In this document: one piece after another, positions 10,614 to 53,876 of the stretch
Numbering within the stretch: the first letter of the stretch is position 1
Layout: every line of letters begins with the position of its first letter
Assembly: GCA_005883615.1 (NCBI GenBank)
Contig: VBEC01000021.1
Location: forward strand, 1 to 64,000
Length of the DNA stretch: 64,000 nt
From: Chloroflexota bacterium
GTDB lineage: Bacteria > Chloroflexota > Limnocylindria > Limnocylindrales > CSP1-4
Direction of reading: 5' to 3'
Position numbers and translations under genes: made by a program
The notes under the pieces: model-generated
Database searches by the model: none
What the model was told of the DNA's origin: nothing
What the model saw: the letters and a program-made list of their open reading frames with translations, nothing else

Positions 10614-10928
10614 ATGTTCGTGGCCAGATACAAGCACATCGAGGTCGGCAAACCCGTCGATCTTGCTGAGCTCGCAGCGAAACGACGCGAGAGAAAAGTC
10701 TCAGCACGCCAGCTCGCCATCCAGGAGCGTGACGACGAGATCCGGCGGGCGATCAACGAGGCATCGGCCGCGCCGTCGAGTCAGGCCATCGCCACGATGC
10801 GCGCAGCAGTTAATCGCGTGCTCAAGGAAAGTGAATCAAACGTTCAGATGGGCGTTCGTGGAACGACCATCTATCTGAGCAAATCGCCAATTCCCGGCGG
10901 CCGCGGCCGCGCCCGGCGAGGAAACTGA
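10614..10928 (+). CDS. Hypothetical 104-aa protein with basic C-terminus
   Basis: ATG preceded by GGGAGGA Shine-Dalgarno; no family recognised. Confidence 0.6.
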   Translation: MFVARYKHIEVGKPVDLAELAAKRRERKVSARQLAIQERDDEIRRAINEASAAPSSQAIATMRAAVNRVLKESESNVQMGVRGTTIYLSKSPIPGGRGRARRGN

Positions 10929-10950
10929 GTCGGACTGATTGTCGGACTGA

Positions 10951-11151
10951 TTGACCTGCGAAAACATCTACCTTGCCCGCCGCGCGGCGCACTTCGGGCG
11001 TCTCGTTCAATACGGCCGCTTCGATGAGCTCGATGCCGAGCATTGGCTGGCGGCCTGGGAGCGCGAGGCCGAGACGCGCGCGCTAGATCGACACGCCCCG
11101 ACGTTCCGGCGGGAGGGCGAGGCTTGGATCAAGGAACGCAACCTGATCTGA
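10951..11151 (+). CDS. Small protein with RRAAHF..DELDAEHWLAAWERE motif (TTG start in ORF track)
   Basis: Second copy of the motif at 34365-34470; differences over the shared core mostly at third codon positions. Confidence 0.5.
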   Translation: MTCENIYLARRAAHFGRLVQYGRFDELDAEHWLAAWEREAETRALDRHAPTFRREGEAWIKERNLI

Positions 11152-33594: not shown

Positions 33595-33984
33595 TTACTC
33601 CTCCTCGAGGGTGCGTGCCTGCTCCCACCAACCTTCGGTGCGCAGATCGTCCGGCGGCTCTCGCTTCAGCTCGCGCGCAGCCTTCGCAAGGCGCGCGCCA
33701 AACTCCTCCAACGAAAGGGACAGGATGTCCCGCAGGCCCTCGATGCCGGCCTGGATGAAGAGCTGGTGGTCGTCCTGGCCGAACGCCGCCAGGTTCAGCA
33801 TCAGGGCTTCGTCGCGCCACGCGAGCACGTCGTTCGGCGAAGCATCGACATGGTCGGCCAGATATTGCCGGCGAGCCGGGGTCTCCGAGACCTCGAGCAG
33901 GATCCCGGTCGTGAAGATGCCCTGCTTCTCGAGCCGCTCGAGGTAGACGGGCTCGATACGGGTCAGCTCGGTGATCGGCGGCAC
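33595..33984 (-). CDS. DUF4332-like helix-hairpin-helix protein
   Basis: VPPITELTRIEPVYLERLEKQGIFTTGILLEVSETPARRQYLADHVDASPNDVLAWRDEALMLNL. Confidence 0.65.
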   Translation of the reverse strand: MPPITELTRIEPVYLERLEKQGIFTTGILLEVSETPARRQYLADHVDASPNDVLAWRDEALMLNLAAFGQDDHQLFIQAGIEGLRDILSLSLEEFGARLAKAARELKREPPDDLRTEGWWEQARTLEEE

Positions 33985-34188
33985 TGCTCCTCCAGGTCGA
34001 TCTCTGCGGCCCCGATGATGCCAGAGCGCGCCCCGTCTTCGCGGCTCCGCCCGCCCCTCTGCCGCGATCCGTTCAGGCCTTCGGGTCGCCGAAGATCGTA
34101 TTAGGGCAGCGGTCGTGCTCACGCTCGGCATGAGGTCGTCCATCACGCACGATTGCGTCCGTTTTGTCCGCTAGGATACGGCCCAATC

Positions 34189-34207
34189 GGGTGCACAAAC
34201 GGGTGCA
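34189..34207 (+). repeat. Direct repeat copy 1 (att-like): GGGTGCACAAACGGGTGCA
   Basis: 18/19 identical to copy at 35996-36014; itself an internal GGGTGCA repeat. Confidence 0.6.
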
Positions 34208-34243
34208 GGATTGCTTCGGGAGCGGGGAGGTGGCGCGCAGGCC

Positions 34244-34363
34244 GTGGATGTGACCCTTGCGGCACTTGCCGACTCAGCCATCCAATCGTCCGACGGCAAG
34301 CTCAGCATCATCGGGCTGTTTTCGGAGATCCGCACGGGCGGCTTTCCTGCCGTGCACCCCCAA
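34244..34363 (+). pseudogene. 5' fragment of a DUF6941-like gene
   Basis: VDVTLAALADSAIQSSDGKLSIIGLFSEIRTGGFPAVHPQ then the homology-like region ends abruptly. Confidence 0.5.
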
Positions 34364-34364
34364 T

Positions 34365-34470
34365 GCGCGCTCGACGCGCCGCCCACTTCCGACGCCTCAC
34401 CGACGAGGACCGCCTCGATGAGCTCGACGCCGAGCACTGGCTCGCAGCCTGGGAGCGCGAGGGCGAGGCC
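34365..34470 (+). pseudogene. Truncated copy of RRAAHF..DELDAEHWLAAWERE motif gene
   Basis: MRARRAAHFRRLTDEDRLDELDAEHWLAAWEREGEA; diverges from the 10951 copy after ERE. Confidence 0.5.
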
Positions 34471-34674
34471 GGCATTGGCTCCCTTCGACGGGGTTGTGGG
34501 CGAACTGCTGGCGAGCCTTCTCCAGGAACTCATCGGGCGGGATTGAATGGTTCGGGCCTAGGGGGGCCTGCGGCGTTCTACATCGTCCACGCTCGCGGCG
34601 GGCGACGGCGTCGGGATCAGCATCGCGACCGCGATGACCACTGCCGCAACGAGTCCCAGGGAGACCCAGATCCG

Positions 34675-35568
34675 ATGACGACAGAACCGACCGGGCTCTC
34701 GGGCGGCGCGTTGCAGGCGCGCATCGATGAGCTCTGGGACTTCAAGGATCCTGCGGCCAGCGAGTCGAGATTTCGGGGTGCCGCCGGCGACGCCTCGACG
34801 ATGAGCGAGCAGGACATTCTCATGACCCAGGTGGCGCGAGCGCTCGGTCTCCAGGGCCAGTACGCAGAAGGACTGGAGATCCTCGATTCCATTCGGGCTA
34901 ATGGGGACGATGACCTCGAAGTCGCGGCGCGCACACGCCTCGAACGGGGCAGGATCCTCAACACGCGCGGCGACCGTGACGAGGCGCGGTCGAGGTTCCA
35001 GGCCGCGTTCGATCGCGCGACCAGCGCCGGACTGGAGAACCTCGCAGTGGACGCGCTGCACATGATTGCCATCGTCTCTCCGCCAGACGAGCAGCTGATC
35101 GCAAACGAACGCGCGATCGCGTTGGCCAAGACGGCGAACGACCCGCGGGCACGGGGATGGCTACCCAGCCTCTACAACAACACAGGCTGGACCCACTTCG
35201 AGGCCGGCAACCTCGACAAGGCTCTCAAACTGTTCGAGCTGGCTCTCGACGAGCGGCTCAAGCTCGACAAGCCCCGTGAGATCGGGATCGCCCGGTGGGC
35301 CGTGGCCCGAACCCTCCGCGCGCAGGATCGGACCGAGGACGCGCTCGCCGCGCAGCGCGAGCTCAAGGGGTTCAATGCCGCGGCGGGAATATTCGACGAT
35401 CCCTTCGTCGACGAGGAGATTGGCGAATGCCTGCTCATTCTGGGCCGATCGGAGGAAGCCCGGCCGTATTTCGCCAAGGCTGCCGATGGGATCTCGGCCG
35501 ATGGCTGGATAATGGCCAACGAGCCTGAGCGTATCGCTCGCCTACGAGAGCTCGGCGGCGCAACCTGA
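34675..35568 (+). CDS. Tetratricopeptide-repeat protein
   Basis: Start trimmed to MTTEPTGLSG; repeated helical pairs e.g. SLYNNTGWTHFEAGNLDKALKLFELALDERLKL. Confidence 0.8.
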   Translation: MTTEPTGLSGGALQARIDELWDFKDPAASESRFRGAAGDASTMSEQDILMTQVARALGLQGQYAEGLEILDSIRANGDDDLEVAARTRLERGRILNTRGDRDEARSRFQAAFDRATSAGLENLAVDALHMIAIVSPPDEQLIANERAIALAKTANDPRARGWLPSLYNNTGWTHFEAGNLDKALKLFELALDERLKLDKPREIGIARWAVARTLRAQDRTEDALAAQRELKGFNAAAGIFDDPFVDEEIGECLLILGRSEEARPYFAKAADGISADGWIMANEPERIARLRELGGAT

Positions 35569-35626
35569 TCGGGATCGCGGTAGTGGCTCCATCGCGCGCG
35601 AGCTTCACCCGGACGACGACTCGGGG

Positions 35627-35992
35627 ATGTGGTCGCTGCCCGACGCTGACCCGGGGACGGTCGTGATCGTCCTCAGGGTCCTACGGGAGGTCGTGAAGCG
35701 GACCGAAGGGCGGATCGTTTCATTCAGCCGCCGCGATGCCCGGCTGCTGCCGATCTTCTTTCGTGCGATCGAAGAGAACTACGAGAAGGTGCCGGCCCTG
35801 GCCGACTGGCACGCCTTCACGGCGGGCGAGGAGCTCGCGGTCATCAGCAAGGTACTAGGGCACGCGGACTACTCGACAACGCTCCGGGTGTACGCGCACC
35901 TCGATCCGGCGCGCGCGAAGTTGGCGGCGGCACGGATCGACGCCGTCCTGGGCCGCATGCTGCCAGCCATCGACGAGGCTGCCAACGCCTGA
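35627..35992 (+). pseudogene. Tyrosine recombinase C-terminal remnant in a chimeric ORF
   Basis: EELAVISKVLGHADYSTTLRVYAHLDPARAKLAAARIDAVLGRML retains H..Y box II; box I arginine/HxLR region absent. Confidence 0.65.
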
Positions 35993-35995
35993 ACT

Positions 35996-36014
35996 GGGTG
36001 CAGAAACGGGTGCA
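35996..36014 (+). repeat. Direct repeat copy 2 (att-like): GGGTGCAGAAACGGGTGCA
   Basis: Begins 4 nt after the last base of the integrase-remnant ORF; matches 34189-34207 except one base. Confidence 0.6.
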
Positions 36015-36066
36015 AAGACCCTCGGTGGACTGCCCGCCGGAGGCCCTTTCACGCTCAGATCCGGGT

Positions 36067-37587
36067 CTATCTGGCGGGCTTGTCGCCGAAGATCGTGTAG
36101 TGCCATGGCTTCTCGGGCTGGCCCGTCAGCTCGATCATGACGTGCTTCACCTGCGTGTACTCCTCGAAGGAGTAGCTCGACATGTCCTTGCCGAAGCCGG
36201 ACTGCCTGAAGCCGCCGTGTGGCATCTCCGAGGCGACCATCAGGTGGTCGTTGACGAGCACGTGGCCGAAGTTGAGCTCCTTGGCCGCGCGCATGGCGCG
36301 GTACACGTCCTTGGTCCAGACCGAGCTCGCGAGCCCGTAGCGGGTGTCATTTGCCTTCTCGATGGCCTCGTCGTCGGTGTCGAATGGCAGCACCGCGAGA
36401 ACCGGGCCGAACACCTCGTTGCACACGATGTCGCTGTCCTGCGCGACGTCGGCAACGAGGGTCGGGCGATAGAAGGCACCATGCTCGAAAGCGGGAACGA
36501 TCGCCCGCGCCCCGCCGGTGACGATGCGAGCGCCGGCCTGGCGCGAACGCTCGACGAAGCCCTCGACTCGCTCGACTTGCGCCTGACTGATCAGCGAGCC
36601 CATGTCGGTCGCCGGGTCGAACGGGTCGCCGACACGAACGCCCTCGAACAGCTCCTGCAGGCGCGCGAGCAGGCGGTCGTGGACCGGACCGTGGACGTAC
36701 AGGCGCGTTGCCGCGGTACAGTCCTGGCCTCCGTTGATGAGGGCTCCCGCTGTCGCGCCGCGGGCCGCTGCCTCCAGGTCAGCGTCGTCGAAGACGACGA
36801 ATGGCGCCTTGCCACCGAGCTCCAGATGGACGCGCTTCAGATTGCGGGCGGCGAGCTCCTGGATCTGCCGGCCCGTGGCGGAGTCGCCCGTCAACGACAC
36901 CATGTCGATGTCGGGATGCGCCGCGATCGCCGCCCCAACGATCTCGCCACGCCCCGTCACCACGTTCAGAACGCCGTCGGGCAGACCCGCCTCATGCGCG
37001 AGCTCCGCCAGCCGAATGGCGGTCAGCGGCGTTGCCGACGCCGGTTTCAGGATGACCGAGTTGCCAGCGGCGAGCGCGGGCCCGACCTTCCAGATCGCCA
37101 TCCAGAAGGGGTAGTTCCAGGGCGCGATCTGGCCGATCACGCCGATCGGCTCGCGACGCACCATGCTCGTGTGACTACCCGAGTACTCGGCCGCGGCCTT
37201 GCCTTCGAGGTGCCTGGCCTGGCCCGCGAAGAAGCGCAGATTGTCGATCGAGAACGGCAGATCCGAGTCTCGCCGCAGCTTGTATGCCGATCCGGTCTGA
37301 AGCGTCTCGGTGTGGGCGATGTCTTCCGCGTTGGCTTCGATGAGGTCGGCCAGCTTGCTCAGGATCCCTGCGCGTTCGCTCGGCGGCTTGCCTCGCCAGC
37401 GCCGATCGCGAAAGGCCGCCCGGCCAGCGCGGACCGCACGGTCGACGTCGTCCACTCCACCGGCAGGCACCCGCGCCAGGATCTCGCCGGTCGCGGGGTT
37501 CAGGACGTCGATCCACTGTCCGCCCAGGGCGGGAACCGGCCCGCCATCGATGAACATCTCGCGATCCGCGACCGCCTCGACGGCCAT
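36067..37587 (-). CDS. Aldehyde dehydrogenase family protein (betaine/amino-aldehyde type)
   Basis: APWNYPFWMAIWKVGPALAAGNSVILKPAS, VHLELGGKAPFVVFDDADLE, NGGQDCTAATRLYV. Confidence 0.95.
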   Translation of the reverse strand: MAVEAVADREMFIDGGPVPALGGQWIDVLNPATGEILARVPAGGVDDVDRAVRAGRAAFRDRRWRGKPPSERAGILSKLADLIEANAEDIAHTETLQTGSAYKLRRDSDLPFSIDNLRFFAGQARHLEGKAAAEYSGSHTSMVRREPIGVIGQIAPWNYPFWMAIWKVGPALAAGNSVILKPASATPLTAIRLAELAHEAGLPDGVLNVVTGRGEIVGAAIAAHPDIDMVSLTGDSATGRQIQELAARNLKRVHLELGGKAPFVVFDDADLEAAARGATAGALINGGQDCTAATRLYVHGPVHDRLLARLQELFEGVRVGDPFDPATDMGSLISQAQVERVEGFVERSRQAGARIVTGGARAIVPAFEHGAFYRPTLVADVAQDSDIVCNEVFGPVLAVLPFDTDDEAIEKANDTRYGLASSVWTKDVYRAMRAAKELNFGHVLVNDHLMVASEMPHGGFRQSGFGKDMSSYSFEEYTQVKHVMIELTGQPEKPWHYTIFGDKPAR

Positions 37588-51126: not shown

Positions 51127-52140
51127 TCAGGCCCGCGGATGCGCGCGGGCGTACACCTCACGTACGCGTTCGCCGGTCAGGTGCGTGTAGAGCTGCGTGG
51201 TGCTGATACTCGCATGTCCGAGCAACTCCTGGACGATGCGCAGGTCGGCTCCGCCCTCCAGGAGATGGGTCGCGAACGAGTGACGCAGAGTGTGCGGCGT
51301 CACCCGAGCATCGAGGCCGGCCATGCGCGCGGCGCGCTTGACGGTCGTCCAGGCCTGCTGTCGCGCCAGGCGGCGGCCGCGGGGCGTCACGAAGAACGGA
51401 TCGCCGCGAGGGGTGGCGGTGCTTCGCGCCAGCGAGGCTGGCCTCACTTCGCTGTCGTAGCGGCCGAGCCATTCGAGCGCAACCTCGCCCACCGGCACCA
51501 TCCGCTCCTTGTCGCCCTTCCCGATGACCCGCACGAAACCACCCTCGAGGGAGAGATCCTCGCGGTCCAGGCCGAGTGCCTCGCTGATCCGCAGGCCGGA
51601 CGCGTACAGCAGCTCGAGGAGCGCACGGTCTCTGAGGCCTGCGGCAGAGGCAGCCGCCCGGGCGTCGAGACGAGGGTTGCCGGCGCCCTGCCCCAAAGTG
51701 AGCTCGGTCGGACCGATCGACTCGAGCATGCGCTCGACCTCCCCAACGGACAGGACCTCAGGGAGGTGGCGACCCTGGCGCGGAAGATCGATGTGTGACG
51801 CGACGTCGATGTCGATGAGGCCCTCTCCGAACGCGAAACGGTAGAACCCCCGTAGCGAGGCGGTTCGCCGCCGCCGCGTCGTCGTTCGCAGCACGCTTCC
51901 GCTCGGGGCCCGCCGGGTGGCGAGATCCGCCAGGTAGCGCACCGCAGGGTCGGACGAGCGGCTCCAGAGCCGATCCACCCCCTTCGATCGAGCAAAGGTC
52001 GATAGGTCGCCCCGATACGCGGCGATCGAGCGCTCGGCGAGGCCGCGCTCAACCCGAAGATAGGTGAGGTAGTCGTCGATCGCCCGGCCGAGCGAACCGA
52101 CACCGGCAGCAGCCCGACCGCTCGCGGCCAGCTCGTGCAT
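51127..52140 (-). CDS. Tyrosine recombinase XerC/XerD
   Basis: LLYASGLRISEALGLDREDL, TPHTLRHSFATHLLEGGADLRIVQELLGHASISTTQLYTHL. Confidence 0.93.
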   Translation of the reverse strand: MHELAASGRAAAGVGSLGRAIDDYLTYLRVERGLAERSIAAYRGDLSTFARSKGVDRLWSRSSDPAVRYLADLATRRAPSGSVLRTTTRRRRTASLRGFYRFAFGEGLIDIDVASHIDLPRQGRHLPEVLSVGEVERMLESIGPTELTLGQGAGNPRLDARAAASAAGLRDRALLELLYASGLRISEALGLDREDLSLEGGFVRVIGKGDKERMVPVGEVALEWLGRYDSEVRPASLARSTATPRGDPFFVTPRGRRLARQQAWTTVKRAARMAGLDARVTPHTLRHSFATHLLEGGADLRIVQELLGHASISTTQLYTHLTGERVREVYARAHPRA

Positions 52141-53876
52141 CAGCTCGCCGCGGCCAGCGCGCCTCGCCACGCCTCGGCACGATCGAGCAGGTCTCCGGCC
52201 CCCGCCAGAGCCGCTGCCCCGCCGTTCGCCCCGCCCAGCATGTGCGCGAGCTCGACGATCCGTCCTTCTCGATCCAGCGGGCGAATCTCGGTGATGGTGC
52301 GGCCGTCGCGCTCCCGTTTCGAGATCTGGAAGTGGGCGTCCGCGTGCGCTGCGATCTGGGGCAGATGGGTGACGCACAGCACCTGGTGGTCTCGCGCGAG
52401 GGTCCACAGGCTGCGCCCCACGGGATCGGCGCTTCGGCCGCCGATGCCCGCGTCGATCTCGTCGAACACCAGGACTGGCGTCGCATCGGCCGCCGCCAGG
52501 ACCTGCTTGATCGCGAGGGCCACGCGCGACAGCTCGCCACCCGACGCGATCTTTGCCAGCGGCCTGGCCGGCTCGCCGGGATTCGGTGCCAGCTGGAACG
52601 CCACTTCGTCGATCCCGGTCGCATCGAAGGCCACCGCGTCGCCGTCGACCTCGACCGCGGGTTCGTCGGCCAGGGCAGGCCGCCGGCCGACCGCGATCTG
52701 GAAGACATCGGGCCCGAAGCCAAGTCCTTCGAGCGCCTGACCGACAGAGGCGCTCAGTCCCGCCGCGGCCACCGAGCGAAGATCGGAAAGTCTCCCGGCG
52801 GTCCGGCCGACGTCCGAGAGGAGCACCGCGCCCTCCGCGACCCGACCCTCACGTTCGTCGTCCAGGCCGAGTAGTCGTTCGGCCTCCTCCCGCGCCCGCG
52901 CCCCATACGCGAGGATCGCCTCCTCGTCATCGCCGTAGCGGCCCTGCAGCGAGTAGATCAGAGAGAGGCGCTCGTGCATCGCCGCGAGTGCGGCAGGGTC
53001 ATGGTCGAGGTCCTCGATCAGTCCACGGATGTCGCCCGCGACGTCGGCGAGCTCGGCCTCCAGCCCGGCCAGACGCTCCGCGACCGCAGCGAAGCGGGGA
53101 TCCAGCTGGGCGATGTTGCGTGCCTCCCGAGCGGCGATGCCCGTCGCCTCGCGTGCACCCCCGCCTTCCCGCCCGGCCCGGCCCCCTCGCTCCCTCGCGA
53201 TCTCCCCCGCCAGCGCCTCGCGGATCGCGGCGCTGCCGCGCGCGATGGCCTCGGCATGTTGTGCGGCCGAAAGTCTCGCACGCAGGTCGGCCGCCTCCCC
53301 CGGGTGCAGTCGCGCAGCGGCGATCTCTGCCGCCTCATGCTCCAGGATCGCCAGCCGGCGCGCCAGCTCCCGAGGGTCGATGGCCAGCTCCGCGAGCGCC
53401 GATCGGTTGGCCCGCCAGCGGTCGACGGCAGTGGCGATGTCTGAGCGGGCCGCATCATGGCCGCCGAAGGCGTCCAGCAGATCGCGCTGCCGGCGGTCGT
53501 CGAGCAACCGCTGCTGGTCGTGCTGGCCGTGGACCTCGACGAGCGGCCCGATCTGCTCGGCCAGAGCCGCAGCGGTGACGGCATCGTCATCGAGACGGGC
53601 GGTGGACCTTCCGCCCGTCGAGAGCTCGCGCACGGCGATTAGCGGCTCGGGGACGCGGTCGAAGAGTGCCTCGACGCGAGCGGTCGATGCCCCGTGCCGC
53701 ACCAGCCCAGGATCCGCGCGCACGCCGAGTACGAGCCCGAGCGCATCGATCAGCAGGCTCTTGCCGGCGCCGGTCTCGCCGGTGATCACGGTGAAACCCT
53801 CGCCCAGCCCGAGCTGCACGCGGTCCATCAAGGCAAGGTCCGTGACGGTCATTGAGAGCAGGTGACCGGCGCTCAC
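52140..53876 (-). CDS. recN: DNA repair protein RecN
   Basis: TVITGETGAGKSLLIDALGLVLG...VEVHGQHDQQRLLD...ASGGELSRVALAIKQVLA...VLVFDEIDAGIGGRSADPVGRSLWTLARDHQVLCVTHLPQIAAHAD. Confidence 0.96.
   Translation of the reverse strand: MSAGHLLSMTVTDLALMDRVQLGLGEGFTVITGETGAGKSLLIDALGLVLGVRADPGLVRHGASTARVEALFDRVPEPLIAVRELSTGGRSTARLDDDAVTAAALAEQIGPLVEVHGQHDQQRLLDDRRQRDLLDAFGGHDAARSDIATAVDRWRANRSALAELAIDPRELARRLAILEHEAAEIAAARLHPGEAADLRARLSAAQHAEAIARGSAAIREALAGEIARERGGRAGREGGGAREATGIAAREARNIAQLDPRFAAVAERLAGLEAELADVAGDIRGLIEDLDHDPAALAAMHERLSLIYSLQGRYGDDEEAILAYGARAREEAERLLGLDDEREGRVAEGAVLLSDVGRTAGRLSDLRSVAAAGLSASVGQALEGLGFGPDVFQIAVGRRPALADEPAVEVDGDAVAFDATGIDEVAFQLAPNPGEPARPLAKIASGGELSRVALAIKQVLAAADATPVLVFDEIDAGIGGRSADPVGRSLWTLARDHQVLCVTHLPQIAAHADAHFQISKRERDGRTITEIRPLDREGRIVELAHMLGGANGGAAALAGAGDLLDRAEAWRGALAAAS

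Follow-up and report, generated by a model that had tools for sequence, protein, structure and literature searches.

An insertion with a gutted tyrosine integrase at the 3′ end of an aldehyde dehydrogenase gene in a Chloroflexota genome

Gene content and the two 19-bp repeats

The stretch of DNA analysed here (the window) is 64 kb long and belongs to a 3.06-Mb genome of CSP1-4-type Chloroflexota. Between a DUF4332 gene and an aldehyde dehydrogenase (ALDH) gene, it carries two 19-bp direct repeats and a set of mostly fragmentary genes, as follows.

33595-34146, minus strand: DUF4332 gene (ORF as listed), the native downstream neighbour of ALDH in relatives
34073-34099, minus strand: putative displaced native ALDH 3′ end (TIFGDPKA-stop), including the left core; match to ALDH ends of relatives
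34085-34099, minus strand: left 15-bp candidate att core, GTCGCCGAAGATCGT on the plus strand; repeat family and shuffles (0/2000)
34189-34207, plus strand: left 19-bp repeat, two GGGTGCA words with a 12-bp period; proposed arm-type site
34256-34372, plus strand: DUF6941 gene, 5′ part only, covering profile positions 2-39 of 125 (Pfam PF22091, E 1.2e-9)
34366-34473, plus strand: small-protein gene fragment, a relative of the copy at 10951-11151
34675-35568, plus strand: intact gene for a TPR-repeat protein of 297 aa, probable cargo; ORF and profile matches
35588-35782, plus strand: middle fragment of a gene (function not assigned) that precedes the integrase in related elements; 52% identical to residues 89-152 of a 230-aa protein of G158:C84
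35810-35992, plus strand: tyrosine integrase C-terminal remnant; retains the nucleophile-Tyr box but lacks box II HxxR and all that precedes it
35996-36014, plus strand: right 19-bp repeat, straight after the integrase stop; proposed arm-type site
36047-36059, plus strand: word TTTCACGCTCAGA, also present in related elements, where it lies between repeat pair and tRNA; sequence match
36082-36096, minus strand: right 15-bp candidate att core, within the final ALDH codons; repeat search, shuffles and ALDH ends of relatives
36067-37587, minus strand: target gene ALDH, with an apparently element-supplied end (KPAR-stop); comparison with relatives

The two repeats, GGGTGCACAAACGGGTGCA (34189-34207) and GGGTGCAGAAACGGGTGCA (35996-36014), share 18 of 19 positions in direct orientation, exactly as an earlier note on this DNA had described them. 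With up to three mismatches allowed, the 19-mer occurs just these two times in the window, where shuffles lead one to expect 0.02 occurrences, and the genome holds one further copy, with one mismatch, on another contig. A looser form, GGGTGCANNNACGGGTGCA, was found among 177 genomes of the class three times in this genome and once in a congener, in the latter case inside an argC-like coding sequence. Because the 19-mer is so rare in the window, the genome and the class, finding two copies in the same orientation at a distance of 1.8 kb is not a product of chance. The earlier note had also considered a repeat common throughout the genome without integrase association, an idea that we rejected: the sole additional copy (G000:C34:8184-8202; L003, L004) is located between rpoB and rpoC, has no integrase close to it and was treated as a chance match. 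In viral contigs, the motif gave ten pattern matches, none of them preceded by an integrase box. Each 19-mer is itself composite, consisting of the 7-bp motif GGGTGCA twice with a 12-bp period.

The DUF6941-like 5′ fragment, the truncated small-protein motif and the apparently intact TPR gene that the earlier note had placed between the repeats are all present, the first confirmed by its Pfam match and the second by 72% amino acid identity (79% at the DNA level over 99 bp) to the apparently intact copy at 10951-11151. That copy follows a 12-bp tandem pair (TCGGACTGATTG twice) situated directly past the stop of ORF 10614-10928; the region 10929-11151, near which no tRNA gene was found, is possibly another element end. 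Relatives of the TPR protein at 35-50% identity occur in Planctomycetota, Armatimonadetes, Chloroflexi, Actinomycetota and other groups, and this spread over many phyla does not support the gene as a hallmark of the element; despite the spread, the protein was found in just 3 of 61 genomes sampled in the family. No transfer gene was seen in the 2-kb remnant, and its base composition showed no clear shift.

The last ORF between the repeats (35579-35992) is a fusion. Its residues 4-68 match, at 52% identity, the middle of a 230-aa protein that is encoded directly upstream of an integrase in G158:C84 and has relatives upstream in G010:C16, and in G161:C188, while residues 78 onwards match an integrase C-terminus, including LGHADYSTTLRVYAHL (PHROG integrase, E 3.2e-7). 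As the ORF joins a piece of the upstream gene to approximately 60 C-terminal integrase codons, a deletion appears to have removed most of the integrase. The earlier note had described the ORF as ending in a tyrosine-recombinase box II, with the catalytic N-terminal part lost; the integrase C-terminus and the gutting of the gene are real, but the loss extends further, with the H-x-x-R of box II also gone, and the N-terminal half of the ORF belongs to another element gene and not to the integrase. The right repeat begins 3 bp past the end of the remnant, directly after the ORF as had been noted. The order of upstream gene, integrase and repeat pair, followed by the target gene, is common to the window, G158:C84 and G010:C16.

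With a C-terminal remnant as its only integrase sequence, the locus is a relic and not a functional element. A search of the rest of the genome for the phage-type integrase of the class gave no match at 1e-20. In a separate search of genome contigs, no relatives of the remnant were confirmed. The full tyrosine-recombinase matches of this genome are two in number and Xer-sized, one at 51127-52407 in the window and one on contig C81. The former was rejected as the source of the remnant; it lies downstream of a recN-like sequence and has the appearance of a chromosomal Xer-type recombinase.

Insertion and duplicated gene end

A search of 61 family genomes for the ALDH protein showed that the DUF4332 gene comes after ALDH within approximately 1.5 kb, without this insert, in 15 relatives, a Lit-like gene coming next in most of them. 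The window instead reads DUF4332, a displaced ALDH end, 2 kb of extra DNA and ALDH, an insertion with an empty site in relatives as seen for tyrosine-integrase elements. The absence of the interval from these relatives means that it is not syntenic throughout the family and, together with the loss of most of the integrase, upholds the decayed integrative element proposed in the earlier note.

A repeat search of the neighbourhood uncovered a 15-mer, GTCGCCGAAGATCGT, in two identical copies (34085-34099 and 36082-36096) that lie beyond the 19-mers, so that a target is duplicated at both ends of the insertion. The right copy lies within the last codons of ALDH, which ends HYTIFGDKPAR-stop, and the left copy, on the minus strand (34099-34073), reads TIFGDPKA-stop. 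When the 589-bp left flank was shuffled 2000 times, no shuffle had a 15-bp word in common with the ALDH end, and a 22-bp word in the displaced left end, ACGATCTTCGGCGACCCGAAGG, matches the ALDH end of a relative (G082; L049) base for base. Joining the flanks at the core in silico yields an empty site with an ALDH ending HYTIFGDPKA-stop; native ALDH C-termini in relatives include PKS, PKE, PKAE, PKAD, QKA and KPA. Judged from these matches, the left copy is the displaced old end of ALDH, for which the element would have supplied a replacement. The displaced native end, the extra DNA and the restored ALDH end of the joined flanks bear the hallmarks of integration at a gene 3′ end with provision of a substitute, and the displaced end together with the 15 relatives lacking the insert points to a site-specific insertion of approximately 2.0 kb at the ALDH 3′ end. 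The listed DUF4332 ORF overlaps the displaced end, but the true start of this gene is probably near residue 55 (~33984), which would remove the overlap.

Two observations count against integration at the ALDH end: identity at the core is limited to 15 bp with degenerate surroundings, and no intact ALDH-targeting element was found in this analysis, the core edges being drawn from the remnant alone. In a non-exhaustive literature search, we came to know of no ALDH 3′ end serving as an att target.

Another reading is that ALDH and DUF4332 are separated by an ordinary gap of variable gene content, where the 15-mer and the 19-mers occur by accident. The gap is indeed occupied, with no integrase remnant detected, in three relatives (G001:C142, 1.6 kb; G026:C34, 5.2 kb; G036:C8, 3.0 kb; L046, L047, L048), which have other genes inside it. 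They were rejected as carriers of the same element, since no second copy of the core from the ALDH end was found near DUF4332 in any of them, and none of the matches listed clearly resembled the insert. In the window, two independent non-random repeat pairs accompany an integrase 3′ end, and pair and core follow one another in the order seen in tRNA-targeting elements, which makes a mere gene gap most improbable.

Repeat pairs beside related integrases

Both 19-mers lie inside the proposed element, the left one separated from its core by 89 bp (core, 89 bp, pair) and the right one by 67 bp (pair, 67 bp, core). To place them in context, we checked the stretch past the stop codon of 16 usable class integrases that resemble the remnant, scoring a pair where an exact 8-bp word was repeated at 11-13 bp within 63 nt of the stop. 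Direct-repeat pairs were present in 11 of the 16 (for example AACTGCGGTCAAAACTGCGGTCAG, TTGTGGGTCAAGTTGTGGGTCA and GGGTGGTACGCCGGGTGGTACGG), compared with 1.8% of random 63-mers (364 of 20000) and 2.3% of the positions that follow other long frames (18 of 786). A pair after the integrase is the rule among these relatives in the class, lying between the integrase stop and the targeted tRNA 3′ end, with a motif that varies from element to element. In a wider integrase set, a pair was found in 18 of 44 rows, and the approximately 59% without one near the stop count against reading the pairs as arm sites; where a tRNA gene lies within 200 nt downstream, 14 of 16 rows have a pair (two loci counted twice).

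In three related elements, a second pair in the same orientation was found at the far end: G176:C27 (positions 109 and 8753, exact), G064:C32 (10654 and 14824, 4 mismatches) and G158:C84 (19878 and 15041, 4 mismatches). The mismatches of G158:C84 weaken this comparison, as does the fact that no att duplication was found beside its far pair. In G064:C32, 62 bp of the tRNA-Lys 3′ end are duplicated (10508 and 14887), with the pairs immediately internal to the two copies, and no more than the final ~45 residues of the integrase were detected. Several integrases of the class beside tRNA genes are likewise detected just as a C-terminal stub or a broken frame, while the pair and the tRNA end persist (L057, L066, L069 and L055).

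Between repeat pair and target end, a conserved word, TTTCGTGCTCAGA or TTTCACGCTCAGA, recurs at L055, L056, L060, L062, L066, L069 and in the window (36047-36059), although the targets differ. As G064 has the word at its displaced tRNA end too, it may belong to the host, as a feature that follows tRNA genes. A terminator hairpin between the right repeat and the core was supported neither by folding against shuffles nor by a terminator scan.

Because related integrases carry their own pair past the stop, and three elements have it at both ends, the 19-bp repeats are most likely integrase arm-type sites inside the element; like such sites, they lie on both sides of the core and beside the integrase gene. 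The earlier note had taken them for attL and attR of a 1.8-kb element, for which their direct orientation, their near-identity and the position of the right copy beside the integrase end would speak. The duplicated host sequence is, on the contrary, the 15-bp ALDH 3′ end outside them, the longer-range duplication there matches the native ALDH end of relatives, each 19-mer is a 12-bp-period pair like those of related elements, and in G064 the att duplication lies outside the pairs. We therefore regard an attL/attR role of the 19-mers as very unlikely.

The main rival to arm sites is that the pairs bind an excisionase (directionality factor). Excisionase sites are usually on one arm, whereas the pairs occupy both arms, stand directly beside the integrase gene and have motifs that differ between elements. 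One study does describe excisionases that can bind direct repeats spaced one helix turn apart (PMC7498355), and we consider this explanation unlikely, though the strongest competitor of the arm-site assignment.

Proposed history and comparison with known systems

Altogether, the locus probably originated when a small element with a phage-type tyrosine integrase entered the 15-bp core in the last codons of ALDH by site-specific recombination. Its attP would have brought the alternative gene end KPAR-stop and so kept ALDH intact, while the original end, PKA-stop, would have been pushed to the far boundary beside DUF4332. In the circular attP, the integrase stop would be followed by a GGGTGCA pair, 67 bp, the core, 89 bp and a second GGGTGCA pair, and the integrase N-terminal domain would bind the 19-bp repeats on both arms. 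Later deletions, presumably after integration, would have taken nearly all of the integrase and the other element genes, leaving 2.0 kb in which the two cores, the two pairs and a single intact cargo gene, that for the TPR protein, survive.

It is tempting to speculate, although we hold it to be doubtful, that site-complete mini-elements with a gutted integrase recur in the class (the window and G064:C32), each retaining its two cores and two pairs beside an integrase reduced to a C-terminal stub. If so, the host gene may depend on the 3′ end supplied by the element, allowing the mini-element to persist; alternatively, integrases that recognise the pair motif may move it in trans. On this view, the pair past the integrase stop could be read as a key that shows which elements an integrase is able to move.

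The mobile elements of this bacterial group seem little studied, a literature search on them having given no match, and the relic offers a mapped, apparently gene-restoring attachment site in a metabolic gene of CSP1-4-type Chloroflexota. A short motif with a ~12-bp period past an integrase stop and again at the far end is suggested as a computational handle for delimiting elements and remnants in fragmented genomes. The locus also cautions against simply equating the most conspicuous direct repeat near an element edge with the att site.

Integrases that bind arm sites and attP sites that restore a gene are both established (PMC8138268, PMC12884075). As in lambda-type attP (PMC8138268), the proposed accessory repeats of the relic flank the core near the integrase gene; in contrast, its pairs have a 12-bp period and its integrase is destroyed. 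The closest anatomical match is G064:C32:10508-14948 at tRNA-Lys, where the att duplication is likewise outermost, 12-bp-period pairs stand at both ends with the same orientation and similar spacing, and only an integrase C-terminus is detected, but the pair motif (GGTGGTAC), the tRNA target and the glycosyltransferase family 2 cargo differ from those of the window. In anatomy, the relic resembles a cis-mobilizable element (CIME), a decayed ICE or IME that retains attL and attR (PMC5704250): as far as its sequence can be read, it has lost the integration gene, kept both attachment ends and occupies a host gene 3′ end. It departs from a CIME in being just 2 kb long, in that no transfer gene was seen in it to suggest a conjugative ancestor, and in that no intact helper integrase was detected in the genome.
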